A stretch of DNA of 38,576 nt, taken from assembly GCA_001462235.1 (NCBI GenBank), contig LIUI01000018.1, positions 1-38,576 on the forward strand, given 5' to 3'. The position numbers and the translations under genes are program-made. Source of the stretch: Fibrobacteria bacterium GUT307. Lineage in GTDB: Bacteria; Fibrobacterota; Fibrobacteria; Fibrobacterales; Fibrobacteraceae. Position 1 is the stretch's first letter. The number at the start of each line of letters is the position of its first letter. Below the pieces are notes generated by a model. That model worked only from the letters and a program-made list of their open reading frames with translations, did no database searches and was not told where the DNA came from. Positions 15,635 through 25,842 of the stretch are shown here, one piece after another.

Positions 15635-16324
15635 AACCTTTCCAAACCTACGTTGCCTGGTTTTGTAAAACTCCACGGCTTTTGCAAAATCTTCTTTTGT
15701 AAAATCCGGCCATAGAACATCGCTTACAAAGAATTCGCTGTAAGCTGCTTGCCATAGCAGATAATTTGAAAGGCGATATTCGCCGCCTGTGCGTATCACT
15801 AAATCCGGGTCTGGCGCGCCTTGCAAATATAGATGCTTGGCAAATTCCGCTTCGTCTAAGGTTTCTATGTTCAGTTCGCCTTTCTTTGTGAGTTCTGCTA
15901 TTTTACGTGCGGCATCTACAATTTCCATCCTTCCGCCGTAAGATATAGCTAGGTTCAACTGCATCCCTGAGTTTAGAGAGGTTTTGTCTATTGCTTCTTG
16001 TAATTTTTTGCGGGGCTTTTCTGGTAGTTTGCTAAGATTGCCTATCACTTTTAATGTTACATTTTTTTCCATTAAATGAGGCAATTCCTGGGCAACCATT
16101 TCTACTAGGAGGTTCATCAAGTACTCCACTTCTATTTTTGGGCGTTGCCAATTTTCCGAGCTGAATACAAAAAGCGTTAGGTGTTCCAATTTTAAGTCCA
16201 CACCCGCTTCTACGGTTGCCACGGTAGCTTTTGTGCCTTGCCTATGCCCCAAAAAACGCTCAAGCCCCCTGCTTTTTGCCCAGCGCCCATTGCCATCCAT
16301 TATCACGGCTATATGCTTAAGCAT
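15629..16324 (-). CDS. uppS: Di-trans,poly-cis-undecaprenyl diphosphate synthase
   Basis: A 231-residue cis-prenyltransferase that condenses isopentenyl diphosphate onto farnesyl diphosphate to make the undecaprenyl carrier for peptidoglycan and polysaccharide. The signature HIAVIMDGNGRWAKSRG carries the catalytic D10. FSSENWQRP, the GGRMEIVDA segment and RTGGEYRLSNYLLWQ, ending in LWPDF, are family hallmarks. The second motif has RTGGE where RTSGE is usual. The start overlaps the glyA stop by 8 bases, so it is the distal gene of the zinc-finger protein-folC-glyA-uppS run. Confidence 0.95.
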   Translation of the reverse strand: MLKHIAVIMDGNGRWAKSRGLERFLGHRQGTKATVATVEAGVDLKLEHLTLFVFSSENWQRPKIEVEYLMNLLVEMVAQELPHLMEKNVTLKVIGNLSKLPEKPRKKLQEAIDKTSLNSGMQLNLAISYGGRMEIVDAARKIAELTKKGELNIETLDEAEFAKHLYLQGAPDPDLVIRTGGEYRLSNYLLWQAAYSEFFVSDVLWPDFTKEDFAKAVEFYKTRQRRFGKVL

Positions 16325-17552
16325 ACAATGGGTATTTCCTGCAAAGTTCCAAAATATTTTCTCTTATGCTTTTAAGTTTTGCTTCGTCGCTATGGTTTTC
16401 AATAGTATCCACTATGAATTTTGCAACTATGCGAGTGCTTGCAACATCAAAGCCTCTGGTTGTTATTGCCGCTGTTCCCAAACGCACACCAGAAGGGTCC
16501 ATGGGTTTGCGTGGGTCAAATGGAATTGTTGAGCGGCTTGTGGAAATGCCGGCTATGTCTAAAACACGCTCGGCTTCTTTGCCAGAAATGCCTTTGCTTG
16601 TAACATCTACAACCATTAAATGATTGTCCGTTCCATCGGATATTATTTTTAACCCGGCATCCATAAGTTCGGCTGCCATTACCTTAGCATTTTCAATTAC
16701 TTTCTTAGCATAAGCTTGGAATTCCGGTTGCAATGCTTCGTGAAAAGCTACCGCCATTGCTGCTGTTGCATGGTCGTGGGGGCCCCCCTGCATACCAGGG
16801 AATACCGCTTTGTCTATGGCTTTTGCAAATGGCTCTTTGCACATTATTATTGCACCGCGAGGGCCTCTAAGGGTTTTGTGTGTTGTTGTGCTTACAATGT
16901 CAAAATACGGGACAGGGCTTTCTATAGCTTTGCCCGCGATCAAGCCTGCTATGTGGGCTATATCTGCAAAGGTTATCGCTCCAATTTCGTCTGCTATTTC
17001 CTTGAATTTTTTCCAGTCTAAACTTCTGCTGTATGCAGAGAAACCTGCCAAAATCATTTTTGGTTTTTCACGCAGGGCAATTTCCCTAACTTTTTCCATA
17101 TCTATTCTGCCTGTTTCCCTATCCACTTGGTATTGGGTAAAATTGTAAAGCATACCGGAAAAATTAACAGGATGCCCGTGAGAAAGATGGCCTCCGTGGT
17201 CTAATTGCAAACCGAGAACTTTGTCCCCTGGTTTTATGGTTGCAAAATAAACCGCCGCATTTGCAGGGCTACCGGAAAGCGGTTGAACATTTACGTGCTC
17301 GCAGCCAAAGAGTTTTTTGCACCTCTCTATTGCAAGTGCCTCCACCTCGTCAATAACCTCGTTGCCGCCATAGTAGCGTTTGCCTATGTAGCCTTCACTG
17401 TATTTATTGGTGAGTGGGCTGCCTAGTGCTTCCATAACCGCTTTTGAAGTATAGTTCTCCGAGGCTATAAGTTCTATTCCGTCTTCTTGACGTTTTGTCT
17501 CTTTGCTTATAAGGCCTAGGACATCAGGGTCTGTTTGGGAAAGAATTTTCAT
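16317..17552 (-). CDS. glyA: Serine hydroxymethyltransferase
   Basis: A 411-residue PLP enzyme that converts serine and tetrahydrofolate to glycine and 5,10-methylenetetrahydrofolate in the cytoplasm. The PLP lysine is K226 in STTTHKTLRGPRG. IELIASENYTS (26-36), the YSEGYIGKRYYGGNE segment and VQPLSGSPANAAV are the classic motifs, and the length is normal. It sits between folC and uppS. A TTTCTATTTT element 6 bases before its ATG lies at the folC 3' end and may provide a separate, leaderless transcript in addition to read-through from upstream. Confidence 0.97.
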   Translation of the reverse strand: MKILSQTDPDVLGLISKETKRQEDGIELIASENYTSKAVMEALGSPLTNKYSEGYIGKRYYGGNEVIDEVEALAIERCKKLFGCEHVNVQPLSGSPANAAVYFATIKPGDKVLGLQLDHGGHLSHGHPVNFSGMLYNFTQYQVDRETGRIDMEKVREIALREKPKMILAGFSAYSRSLDWKKFKEIADEIGAITFADIAHIAGLIAGKAIESPVPYFDIVSTTTHKTLRGPRGAIIMCKEPFAKAIDKAVFPGMQGGPHDHATAAMAVAFHEALQPEFQAYAKKVIENAKVMAAELMDAGLKIISDGTDNHLMVVDVTSKGISGKEAERVLDIAGISTSRSTIPFDPRKPMDPSGVRLGTAAITTRGFDVASTRIVAKFIVDTIENHSDEAKLKSIRENILELCRKYPLYA

Positions 17553-17569: not shown

Positions 17570-18748
17570 TTAAACCAGCTTCCCTTCATTTGGAAAATTG
17601 CGCAAACTCCTGAATTCCCTTAATTCATGGTATTTACCGGAGAGTTCGGAAATTACCTTTCCTACCAGGTAAAGCGAGCCGGTTATTAAAATCGGTTTTT
17701 GGATTTTATTGCTAAATGGCATTACCTTGATTTTCAATTTCTTGCAAATTTCGCAAATTTCTTTTGGACTTCTGGCTCTTGGATTTTCCATTTGCACAGG
17801 ATAGCAAACCGATATATGCGGCTTTAATGCTTTGAGAACACCAAAAGTATCTTTGTCTTTTAGCGAGGCAAATATGCAGGGCAAGGGCGGAATGTTTTTT
17901 TCCTTTAAGCATTTTGCCAAAATCTTTGCCGCCGCAGGATTATGCGCTCCGTCTAAGATATAATTTTTTACCACTTGCATTCTGCCATGCCATATAGCAT
18001 TTTTGAGCGCAGTCCTTGCTATTATTTTACTGAACTTTGTGCCAAGGAATTCCTTTGCTATAGCCCAAGCCAGCTCTGCATTTTTAATATGAATTTTTCC
18101 AAAGTTTTTAACCTGCAATTCCGGCTTGATTTTTTTTGCCCTTATGTGCCAGGGGCATTTTGCCAAAAGTTTTTTTGGCAAGTTTCCTAAAATGAGAGTT
18201 GCGCCTTTTTTTAATATGCCAAGTTTTTCCTTTAAAATTTTTTCTTCCGTGTTGCCCAGCAACTCGGTATGCTCCAGCGAGATGCTTGTTATTGCGGCTA
18301 TATTGCCGTTTGCGATTTTTGTGCTATCTAGCCTGCCACCTAAGCCCGCTTCTAAAACGGCTGCTTGCACTTTATTTTTTTTGAACCATATAAAAGCAGC
18401 TATTGTTAAGGTTTCAAAATAAGATGGTTCTATATTTGCGGTTTTTGCAGCATGTTCTATTTGCAAAAGAATGGAATCCAATTCCCTTTGAGAAATTATT
18501 TTTCCGTTTATTCTAAATCTTTCCCTTACACTCACCAAATGCGGGCTTGTGAAAAGCCCGGTAATAACCCCGTGCGCTTGCAAAATACCTGCTAAATAAA
18601 GAGCCGTGCCGCCCTTGCCGTTTGTGCCGGCTATGTGAATGCTCTCAAAACTTTTTTGCGGATTTCCGAGTTCATTGCACAAGGTTTTTATATTGCGCAA
18701 ACCTTTGGAAATGCCAAGCGGAATTCTGGACAAAAGATATTCGGGCAT
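17570..18748 (-). CDS. folC: Folylpolyglutamate synthase / dihydrofolate synthase
   Basis: A 392-residue Mur-ligase-fold enzyme that adds glutamates to folates, and in many bacteria also makes dihydrofolate from dihydropteroate. The ATP loop is GTNGKGGT (41-48; GTNGKGST is usual), followed by GLFTSPHLVSVRERFRING, the AAVLEAGLGGRLDSTK motif, SLEHTELLG and the C-terminal LDGAHNP. The length is slightly below typical FolC (about 420). The start lies 4 bases after the zinc-finger protein stop with no visible Shine-Dalgarno, so translational coupling is likely. With glyA downstream this forms a small folate cluster. Confidence 0.93.
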   Translation of the reverse strand: MPEYLLSRIPLGISKGLRNIKTLCNELGNPQKSFESIHIAGTNGKGGTALYLAGILQAHGVITGLFTSPHLVSVRERFRINGKIISQRELDSILLQIEHAAKTANIEPSYFETLTIAAFIWFKKNKVQAAVLEAGLGGRLDSTKIANGNIAAITSISLEHTELLGNTEEKILKEKLGILKKGATLILGNLPKKLLAKCPWHIRAKKIKPELQVKNFGKIHIKNAELAWAIAKEFLGTKFSKIIARTALKNAIWHGRMQVVKNYILDGAHNPAAAKILAKCLKEKNIPPLPCIFASLKDKDTFGVLKALKPHISVCYPVQMENPRARSPKEICEICKKLKIKVMPFSNKIQKPILITGSLYLVGKVISELSGKYHELREFRSLRNFPNEGKLV

Positions 18749-23139: not shown

Positions 23140-24894
23140 TTAACTTCTTGCCCATAGCACCTCGTCCATTCTTATATCTGTTGCGCTTTGAGGTATGGAA
23201 CTTCTTATTTGAACGGAATATGCCAAGCCTATGCGCGGTATGCCTTTGCAAGATGCCAAAAAACGGTCGTAATAGCCGGTTCCGTGCCCCATTCGGCTGC
23301 CGTCTTTGCCAAAAACTACGCCCGGAACTATGAATGCAGCCGGCGTACCCAAAAACGCAGGCAAACTTGCCTTTGGTTCTATTATCCCAAAAACACCTGT
23401 TTGCAAATCATTTTCAATGTCTTGCACCAAAACAAATTCCATATTCTTCTTATCCAGCACTCTTGGCAAAAGAAGCCGGCCTTCCTCAGAAAGTTTTTTT
23501 AGCAAAGGTATAATTTGAGGTTCAAGCTCGGTAGGGTAAAATGTTGCTATATAACCGCTCTCCAAAGCAGAATGGCTTGCAAGTTCGGCAATCAATTTTT
23601 CCGATTCCTCTGCTTTGCTCTCCGCACTCATAGCCAAAATTCTCTCCTTTGCCCAGGCTCTGAATTCACTTGGGGTTTTGGGCAAAGTCGCTTTAAGAAC
23701 CAGTGCTTCCCAAATTTCACGCTGCCAATTCATAAATTCTGCGAATTTGAATTTCTCTTCCCAGCCGCCTAGCAAAGAATCTGCAAGCACATTTAATTGG
23801 CTTTGCTTTGCCAAAAGCCCGGAATCCACTTTCAACTGAGCAGCCTTTTCATTTCTTAATTCCCTAAGTCTTTCCCGCAAATCCTCGTTTATGGCTGTGC
23901 GGGGTGTGGATTTGCGAGTAGCCTGCGTGGGAAATTCGCTTGATGGAGCAGCAACGGCCTCGTTTAGCATTTTTAAGAAGGATTGGAGCAGGGGGCCTTT
24001 CATGTTCCTTGGCATTTTAGGCAAATTATGCTCGGTTATTTTTCCCTTGATTCTTGCGGCAATTTTAACCATATTGAGCATTAAATATGGATTCAAAACC
24101 CTGTAAGAAGCACAGTCTCTTCTTTTGGCTTCTTTGTCTCGCCAATGCCAAGCTGCTCTCAAAAGCTGCAACTCCAAGGGCTTGAATGCATTTGAGCCTC
24201 TTAATCTCCAATTATCTCTTTGAGTATTTTCCAAAAATTCATTTTGATTTTTCCTTGAATTTTTTAGCAAAGTATCGCAGGATTCCTGCAGCCATTCCAT
24301 GCGCCCCAGCTTGTTTAACTCTTTGCATTGAAGTTCCTTAATGGCATCAAGGTAAATTGTGTCTAGCACCGCATAGCGGCACATCTCAGGCGAGAGCGGC
24401 CTTTTTGTCCAGTCTGCTTTTTGGTTTTCCTTATCCAATTGCATCCCAAAATATTTTGCAACCAAGGCGGCTAAGCCTGTTTGCTTTTCTCCTAACAGTT
24501 TTGCGGCAATGGAGGTATCGTAAATTCTCTCAGGATAAAATCCGTGGAATATTGAAAGCAAACGTAAGTCGTAATCGCAGGCATGAAATGTTATTTGCTT
24601 TAACGCTTTGCATTTCCAAAGTGGCTTTATATTAAGCCCGCAAAGCGGGTCTAAAAGCCAATGGTATTTCCCAACGCTTATCTGAATTAAACTGAGTTTT
24701 TCCTGATAGTGATGCATGGAGTCTGCCTCGGTATCCATAACGCAAGAATCTGCCTGTTCCAGAATACCAAGCATCTTTCTGAACGAGCTTTTGTTGTTCA
24801 CAAAAACATACTCTGGGCTTTTGTCTATAAAGCCGCTTGCCTCTTCCGTGTATTTTGGGGCAAATAATCTGTAAAACAGAGAAGAAAGGAACAT
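23140..24894 (-). CDS. rnd: RNase D fused to 5-formyltetrahydrofolate cyclo-ligase
   Basis: A 584-residue two-enzyme fusion. Residues about 25-200 are a DEDDy 3'-5' exonuclease with D54 and E56 (MDTEAD), D107 (HACDYDL), and Y174 and D178 (YAVLD). Two HRDC-like domains follow (about 232-310 and 337-397), so the RNase D part is complete and should trim tRNA and other RNA 3' ends. Residues about 408-584 form a full MTHFS domain: YIATFYPTELEP, VPGVVFGKDGSRMGHGTGYYDRFL and IPRIGLAYSVQI, which recycles 5-formyl-THF to 5,10-methenyl-THF. The canonical GxGGGYYDR loop reads GHGTGYYDR. The gene is last in the ribosomal-protein/RNAP run, 11 bases after nuoI. I know of no usual fusion of these two enzymes. 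Confidence 0.9.
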   Translation of the reverse strand: MFLSSLFYRLFAPKYTEEASGFIDKSPEYVFVNNKSSFRKMLGILEQADSCVMDTEADSMHHYQEKLSLIQISVGKYHWLLDPLCGLNIKPLWKCKALKQITFHACDYDLRLLSIFHGFYPERIYDTSIAAKLLGEKQTGLAALVAKYFGMQLDKENQKADWTKRPLSPEMCRYAVLDTIYLDAIKELQCKELNKLGRMEWLQESCDTLLKNSRKNQNEFLENTQRDNWRLRGSNAFKPLELQLLRAAWHWRDKEAKRRDCASYRVLNPYLMLNMVKIAARIKGKITEHNLPKMPRNMKGPLLQSFLKMLNEAVAAPSSEFPTQATRKSTPRTAINEDLRERLRELRNEKAAQLKVDSGLLAKQSQLNVLADSLLGGWEEKFKFAEFMNWQREIWEALVLKATLPKTPSEFRAWAKERILAMSAESKAEESEKLIAELASHSALESGYIATFYPTELEPQIIPLLKKLSEEGRLLLPRVLDKKNMEFVLVQDIENDLQTGVFGIIEPKASLPAFLGTPAAFIVPGVVFGKDGSRMGHGTGYYDRFLASCKGIPRIGLAYSVQIRSSIPQSATDIRMDEVLWARS

Positions 24895-24905: not shown

Positions 24906-25364
24906 TTAGTAATATTTAGCCAAAAATTTCTCGCGGCTATCGTGAACAAAGGAGGTTTTTCCTGTGTCCATTCTTATAGCGTCAACTGGGCACGCTTCAA
25001 CGCAAAGGCCGCAAAATACGCAAGCTAAATGGTCTATTTCAAAACTTACTGCTCTTTTTTCAACAAAACCATCTGGCGAATCTCCGGCTTTTATCTTGAT
25101 GCAACGCGCCGGGCAAGCCGCTGCGCACATTCCGCAAGCAACGCAACGTGGGGAGCCGTCTGCTCTTTTAAGCAGATAATGCTTGCCACGGTAGTCCTTT
25201 GGAATTCCGGGTTTTATTGTTGGGTAAGGAATGGTGGGGAGAGTTTCGTATTTAAAAAGCCCGCGCAAAAAATGCCTGAGGGTGGTATATAAACCACGAA
25301 TTGCCTCGGGTACATAAGAAACCACCCAAAGCGTTCTCTCAGGATGCCGGACTATACGGGGCAT
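24906..25364 (-). CDS. nuoI: NADH-quinone oxidoreductase subunit I-like 2x[4Fe-4S] protein
   Basis: A 152-residue NuoI-type ferredoxin. Two cluster motifs, CVACGMCAAACPARC and CVFCGLCVEACPVDA, and the LLKRADGSPRC and F-E-IDHLACVFCGLC context match the complex I subunit that passes electrons through N6a and N6b. An upstream ATG overlaps rpsG; the MPRIVRHPERT start at 25364 has an AGGTGG Shine-Dalgarno and follows the rpsG stop by one base, so it is preferred. No other nuo gene is nearby. It is co-transcribed with ribosomal protein genes, in the place where fusA often stands. It either belongs to a dispersed complex I or serves another iron-sulfur oxidoreductase. Confidence 0.85.
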   Translation of the reverse strand: MPRIVRHPERTLWVVSYVPEAIRGLYTTLRHFLRGLFKYETLPTIPYPTIKPGIPKDYRGKHYLLKRADGSPRCVACGMCAAACPARCIKIKAGDSPDGFVEKRAVSFEIDHLACVFCGLCVEACPVDAIRMDTGKTSFVHDSREKFLAKYY

Positions 25365-25365
25365 A

Positions 25366-25842
25366 CTACCACCTAAAATGAGCAAATGCTTTGTTAGCTT
25401 CTGCCATTTTATGCGTATCTATTTTTTTGCGAACTGCGCCGCCATCGTTGTTTTTTGCAGCAACGAGTTCTGCAGCCAAACGCAAGGCCATGTTCTGCTC
25501 ATTCCTTTTGCGAGCCGCTATCAAAAGCCAGCGAAGCGCAAGGGCTTTGGCACGTTCTGGTGCAACCTCAATGGGAACTTGATAGTTAGCACCACCAACT
25601 CTGCGGGTTTTAACCTCTACGTGCGGCTTGATATTTTCAAGGCACAGGTCAAACTTTTCCATAACGGATTCGGAGCCTGCGATTTTTTTGTTCATCTCTT
25701 CAAGTGCGGTATATACAATACGCTCTGCTATTGTTTTTTTACCTGCTTTGAGAACCACGCCTACCAGCTCCGTTACAACGGTTGAATGGAAACGGGGATC
25801 CGGCAAAATGGAACGATGAATGGATTTTCTTCTTCTAGACAT
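25366..25842 (-). CDS. rpsG: 30S ribosomal protein S7
   Basis: A 158-residue S7, which nucleates folding of the 16S rRNA 3' major domain and contacts tRNA at the E site. MSRRRKSIHRSILPDP, the ANYQVPIEVAPERA and ALRWLLIAARKR motifs are conserved. AGGAGA lies just before the ATG. rpsL stops 9 bases upstream, and nuoI starts 1 base after the stop. The usual fusA and tuf genes of the str operon do not follow it. Confidence 0.97.
   Translation of the reverse strand: MSRRRKSIHRSILPDPRFHSTVVTELVGVVLKAGKKTIAERIVYTALEEMNKKIAGSESVMEKFDLCLENIKPHVEVKTRRVGGANYQVPIEVAPERAKALALRWLLIAARKRNEQNMALRLAAELVAAKNNDGGAVRKKIDTHKMAEANKAFAHFRW

Follow-up and report, generated by a model that had tools for sequence, protein, structure and literature searches.

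How does an RNA 3'-end exonuclease come to share one reading frame with a folate-repair enzyme, and does either activity bear on the other? The locus lies in a window of 38,576 nucleotides, a whole contig (C18) of the 2.6 Mb, 91% complete assembly of Fibrobacteria bacterium GUT307. On the minus strand of this window, positions 23140–24894 hold one uninterrupted frame of 584 codons (584 aa, ATG start, TAA stop) that joins an RNase D-type DEDDy exonuclease to a complete 5-formyltetrahydrofolate cyclo-ligase (MTHFS). The RNase D part with its HRDC region spans residues ~29–401, and the MTHFS part follows directly at ~408–580. A preliminary description had reported this frame, with both halves complete and each carrying its catalytic motifs; coordinates and strand proved exact, and the DEDDy residues as well as R412, E458, R534 and GxGYYD of MTHFS are present. 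It had also called the domain pair unfamiliar. Within a limited literature search we found no description of an rnd::MTHFS fusion, which apparently has gone undescribed so far and which, in the genomes examined, is confined to two genera.

The DEDDy 3'-5' exonuclease domain occupies residues ~29–183 (24346–24810, minus strand; PF01612, E = 3.4e-28), and its residues D54, E56, D109, Y174 and D178, in motifs Exo I–III, are invariant in 12/12 genus members. It is followed by an HRDC region (23692–24177, minus strand) with two helical modules, HRDC1 at ~240–281 and an HRDC2-like module at ~300–401. RNase D has two HRDC domains, and enzymes with this arrangement digest RNA starting at its 3' end (PMC6330322). 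Two HRDC-like domains had been claimed for this protein as well; the first passes the Pfam cut-off (PF00570, residues 241–278), whereas the second is recognised only through TIGR01388 coverage, the helices of the AF2 model and the match to the RNase D fold. TIGR01388 aligns with residues 34–395 (model 4–353 of 363, E = 2.5e-50) at 171.8 bits, against an equivalog cut-off of 298.95, and we therefore call this half RNase D-type rather than a proven equivalog. In its tree the stem is long, at 1.32 changes per site. Given the score below the cut-off and this stem, the substrate may have changed from the standard one. Judging from family membership and the conserved residues, the N-terminal half would shorten RNA from its 3' end, using two-metal DEDDy hydrolysis and an HRDC region that helps to bind the substrate. 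At the N-terminus, residues 1–14 (24853–24894) form a short helix, hydrophobic and basic (MFLSSLFYRLFAPK), which is conserved in the genus and reminiscent of RIFSRFFKP in the RNase D of family f3 (families and genera carry our labels f and g); its helical moment is unexceptional.

The MTHFS domain (residues ~410–580; 23155–23667, minus strand) scores above the cut-offs of both TIGR02727 (residues 410–580, model 3–180 of 182; 118.4 bits against 84.9) and PF01812 (109.2 bits against 27), and Foldseek matches it to human MTHFS with ADP (3hy6) with a TM-score of 0.82 and an r.m.s.d. of 1.9. Residues R412, E458, R534 and the GxGYYD motif (538–543) are conserved across the 13 fused proteins; they are aligned to R14, E61, R145 and GxGYYD of the human enzyme, which we take to be residues of the ATP/folate site. 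The N-terminal lysine, K10 in human MTHFS, has no equivalent in the fused proteins, which carry no lysine four residues before the arginine; this position varies across the phylum too. The missing lysine, the long RNase D branch and the existence of 5-FCL-like proteins without 5-FCL activity (COG0212, PMC3223725) would fit a protein with one non-enzymatic half, in which MTHFS (or else the RNase D part) is kept for folding or ligand sensing only. We regard this as very improbable, as the MTHFS domain is the sole PF01812 copy of a genome that has glyA, TIGR02727 is matched above its equivalog cut-off, all DEDDy residues are invariant, and amino-acid conservation is comparable in both halves. 5-formyl-THF is a by-product of SHMT that inhibits folate enzymes and is repaired by 5-FCL (PMC9426524). 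Since the genome holds this one MTHFS and the window holds glyA, repair of 5-formyl-THF in the cell probably falls to the MTHFS half; its family and conserved residues suggest that it would convert 5-formyl-THF, the inhibitory GlyA by-product, to 5,10-methenyl-THF with ATP. In one clade of the family, MTHFS retains little of the N-terminal helix on which known MTHFS carry the ATP-binding Lys/Arg (L032, L033, L034, L037, L039, L044, L046 and L049, from genera g2, g3, g4, g5, g7, g9 and g10). The activity of these helix-poor proteins, the sole copies found there, is uncertain.

The two halves meet at residues 402–407 (ATLPKT; 23674–23691, minus strand), where the C-terminal tail of RNase D passes straight into MTHFS helix 1 and the alignment of the 13 fused proteins is gapless. 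AlphaFold models one well-ordered chain (pLDDT 92.7, ~94–95 at the junction; pTM 0.84) in which six residues separate the last HRDC helix (389–401) from MTHFS helix 1 (408–421). A frame break or an internal start, yielding two separate proteins, had been named as the finding that would speak against a fusion; there is no break in 12/12 genus genomes, and no conserved ribosome site. The most plausible internal start is Met422, from which a second, free MTHFS would be made from the fusion mRNA, as in unfused relatives. This methionine is kept in 13/13 fused sequences, AAAGGAGA lies 17 nt upstream of it in the window, and several unfused MTHFS of the family without the first helix would correspond to such a start. 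However, the Shine-Dalgarno-like match before it is strong in 3/13, weak in 3/13 and absent in 7/13, the spacing is long, and synonymous sites nearby are unconstrained. Met422 moreover belongs to the usual MTHFS motif and is present in human MTHFS, and we give a second product of this kind little credence. Met388, also checked as an internal start, has no upstream purine tract like that at Met422. Proteolysis may cut the fusion protein into separate parts.

The fusion is without stops in all 12 available genomes of Candidatus Fibromonas ('Fibrimonas'), termite-gut Fibrobacterota of a genus described as Fibromonas (PMC4704652), and the proteins of the other 11 are 71–74% identical to that of the window. 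In a genome of the sister genus (G018), the same open frame covers fusion residues 281–583. With 13 genomes, an assembly or frameshift artefact is ruled out as the source. At the contig end in G018 (L038:12524–13834), the N-terminal part of the gene is inverted beside the C-terminal part, a probable mis-assembly or local inversion. The fusion was not found in 97 other matching genomes of the family, whose MTHFS frames are too short for both domains, and a class-wide sample of 61 genomes held no further one. Where the loci of these 97 were read, rnd lies next to MTHFS or close to it. Outside the phylum, a contig scan with six peptides, narrow enough for distant independent fusions to escape it, returned RNase D alone, with no MTHFS within flanks of ~5 kb. 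We conclude that the rnd::MTHFS fusion is real, stably inherited and lineage-specific.

The preliminary description had pointed to glyA and folC in the same window, and both are there (16317–17552 and 17570–18748), with plus-strand genes between them and the fusion. Their proximity is not seen in the 11 other genus members, whose flanks (at most ~5.7 kb downstream) mostly end before the distance of glyA; a folate gene cluster, present in the window and not seen in these limited flanks, was rejected. The nearest neighbours of the fusion (ispH, ferredoxin, rpsG) already differ in most of the 11. The 4Fe-4S ferredoxin-type (NuoI-like) gene upstream of it (24906–25385, minus strand), which ends 11 nt before the fusion, is not seen next to it in the other genus members. 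A link to 6S RNA, suggested from the enterobacterial MTHFS gene, found no support: RF00013 has no match above the gathering score in 61 relatives, none of the five weak matches among them is on the contig that carries MTHFS, and the window holds none.

The adjacency behind the fusion probably goes back to an old gene order, rnd-tatA-tatC-TatB::MTHFS, instead of to proximity to glyA and folC. Within the family, rnd and MTHFS usually adjoin on one strand, and in relatives they are closely spaced or overlap. Genera g5, g9 and g10 and families f3 and f5 have tat genes between the two, in the order given above; tatC is present in each case, and so is a TatA-type gene, with f5 as a possible exception. 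In other genera, the MTHFS locus has a membrane remnant only (g2, g4) or nothing (g3, g6, g7, g11). In the trees of both halves, the fused genera form the same single clade, with support of 100/100 and 100/99. Genomes of g2 (G012, G022, G031, G114 and others) carry rnd and MTHFS in one frame with one or two in-frame TAA/TAG codons between them, an arrangement that is one step short of fusion, and the unfused rnd of this genus ends in LPTAKRIGED, similar to the fusion junction. From gene orders and trees, the class-ancestral locus probably was rnd-tatA-tatC-TatB::MTHFS; the tat genes would have left it in several lineages, so that rnd came to abut MTHFS, and loss of the rnd stop codon would have joined the two once, before Ca. 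Fibromonas and its sister genus diverged. Loss of tat from the locus in several lineages plus one fusion event is the likely, economical history. A loss of the whole Tat pathway is ruled out, since a single tatC and a single TatA/B-type gene remain in G000 on a different contig. No tatC was seen in g3, g4, g6, g7, g8 and g11.

Throughout Fibrobacterota, the MTHFS gene begins with a TatB-like membrane segment and helix directly after tatC. Five such loci, among others that exist, are L068:5646–6428, L071:4762–5592, L039:5366–6064, L062:4631–5425 and L067:5149–5910, all on the minus strand. The TatB-like assignment draws on where the segment lies, immediately behind tatC, on an invariant Glu in a GFSE-type motif, on matches to TIGR01410 in four members that all stay under the family cut-off (E = 1e-4 to 3e-6), and on G052, where TatA_B_E is matched above its cut-off; an AF2 model (pLDDT 85.5) has an N-terminal helix at 7–55. 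No description of TatB-like::MTHFS was found in the literature searched. Such a fusion would anchor a folate-repair enzyme at the Tat translocase. It is phylum-wide, has no obvious explanation and may be more surprising than rnd::MTHFS. The phylum has a third fusion type in genus g12 of family f2, where MTHFS opens a frame of ~790–815 aa (L058:4729–7080, plus strand; L056:3054–5498, minus strand) whose remainder resembles a multi-spanning membrane protein, with a weak DUF2142 match in one. It seems a long shot that MTHFS of Fibrobacterota is under selection for tethering, to the Tat translocase, the g2 membrane segment, the g12 membrane protein and, in Ca. Fibromonas, an RNase D with a short hydrophobic basic N-terminal helix. 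If true, rnd::MTHFS would be one of several ways of fixing where in the cell folate is repaired or RNA trimmed.

These changing partners (RNase D, TatB-like segment, g12 membrane protein) suggest that MTHFS fuses with whatever adjoins it, and speak for position rather than function. From the sequences, we consider it likely that rnd::MTHFS is a bifunctional housekeeping protein which arose by one fusion of co-directional neighbours and whose halves each retain their usual activity and work independently; the fusion would bring little beyond co-expression of the two at 1:1 dosage. A coupled protein could account for the fixation of the fusion in two genera and for a short, well-ordered junction with no floppy linker. 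In such a protein, folate or ATP bound to the MTHFS half would control the trimming of RNA, or the nuclease half would bring folate repair close to RNA, for tRNA formylation or folate-dependent tRNA modification. Coupling would also have a precedent in vertebrate MTHFSD, an RNA-binding protein with an MTHFS-like domain (PMC5773659). It has to be taken into account, however, that rnd and MTHFS are separate in most relatives, that MTHFS is joined elsewhere to a TatB-like segment or a membrane protein, and that no link to 6S RNA or to a folate operon was seen; coupling thus appears unlikely. Nothing found requires RNA-folate communication between the halves, and the most likely reading is a fusion of convenience, between genes that were neighbours in an operon.

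Compared with known proteins, rnd::MTHFS is a new domain architecture. Its best Foldseek match is E. coli RNase D (Rnd, 1yt3; E = 1.7e-18), which shares the order of DEDDy exonuclease and HRDC modules but has no MTHFS domain and is 21% identical to the fusion, itself below the TIGR01388 equivalog cut-off. With MTHFS/YgfA/Fau (3hy6, 1sou) the fusion shares a complete domain, the GxGYYD ATP/folate loop and a TIGR02727 score above the cut-off, and differs in that MTHFS lies behind an RNase D and the human K10 position is not Lys. MTHFSD of vertebrates, an RNA-binding protein with an MTHFS-like domain, carries an RRM instead of a nuclease, and its origin is unrelated. TatB-like::MTHFS of Fibrobacterota likewise puts MTHFS behind a fused partner, here a TatB-like membrane segment and no nuclease, and in several families it occupies this very locus. 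In Fibrobacter and other Fibrobacteraceae, the same two genes stand directly adjacent in the same order and on the same strand, but encode two proteins, with an MTHFS that often has an N-terminal membrane segment or lacks helix 1. The rise of a two-enzyme architecture from operon neighbours is well documented here, with intermediates visible in relatives (tat genes between the two, leftover membrane segments, stop codons within a shared frame, the full fusion), and it warns that a gene fusion is no proof of a shared pathway.
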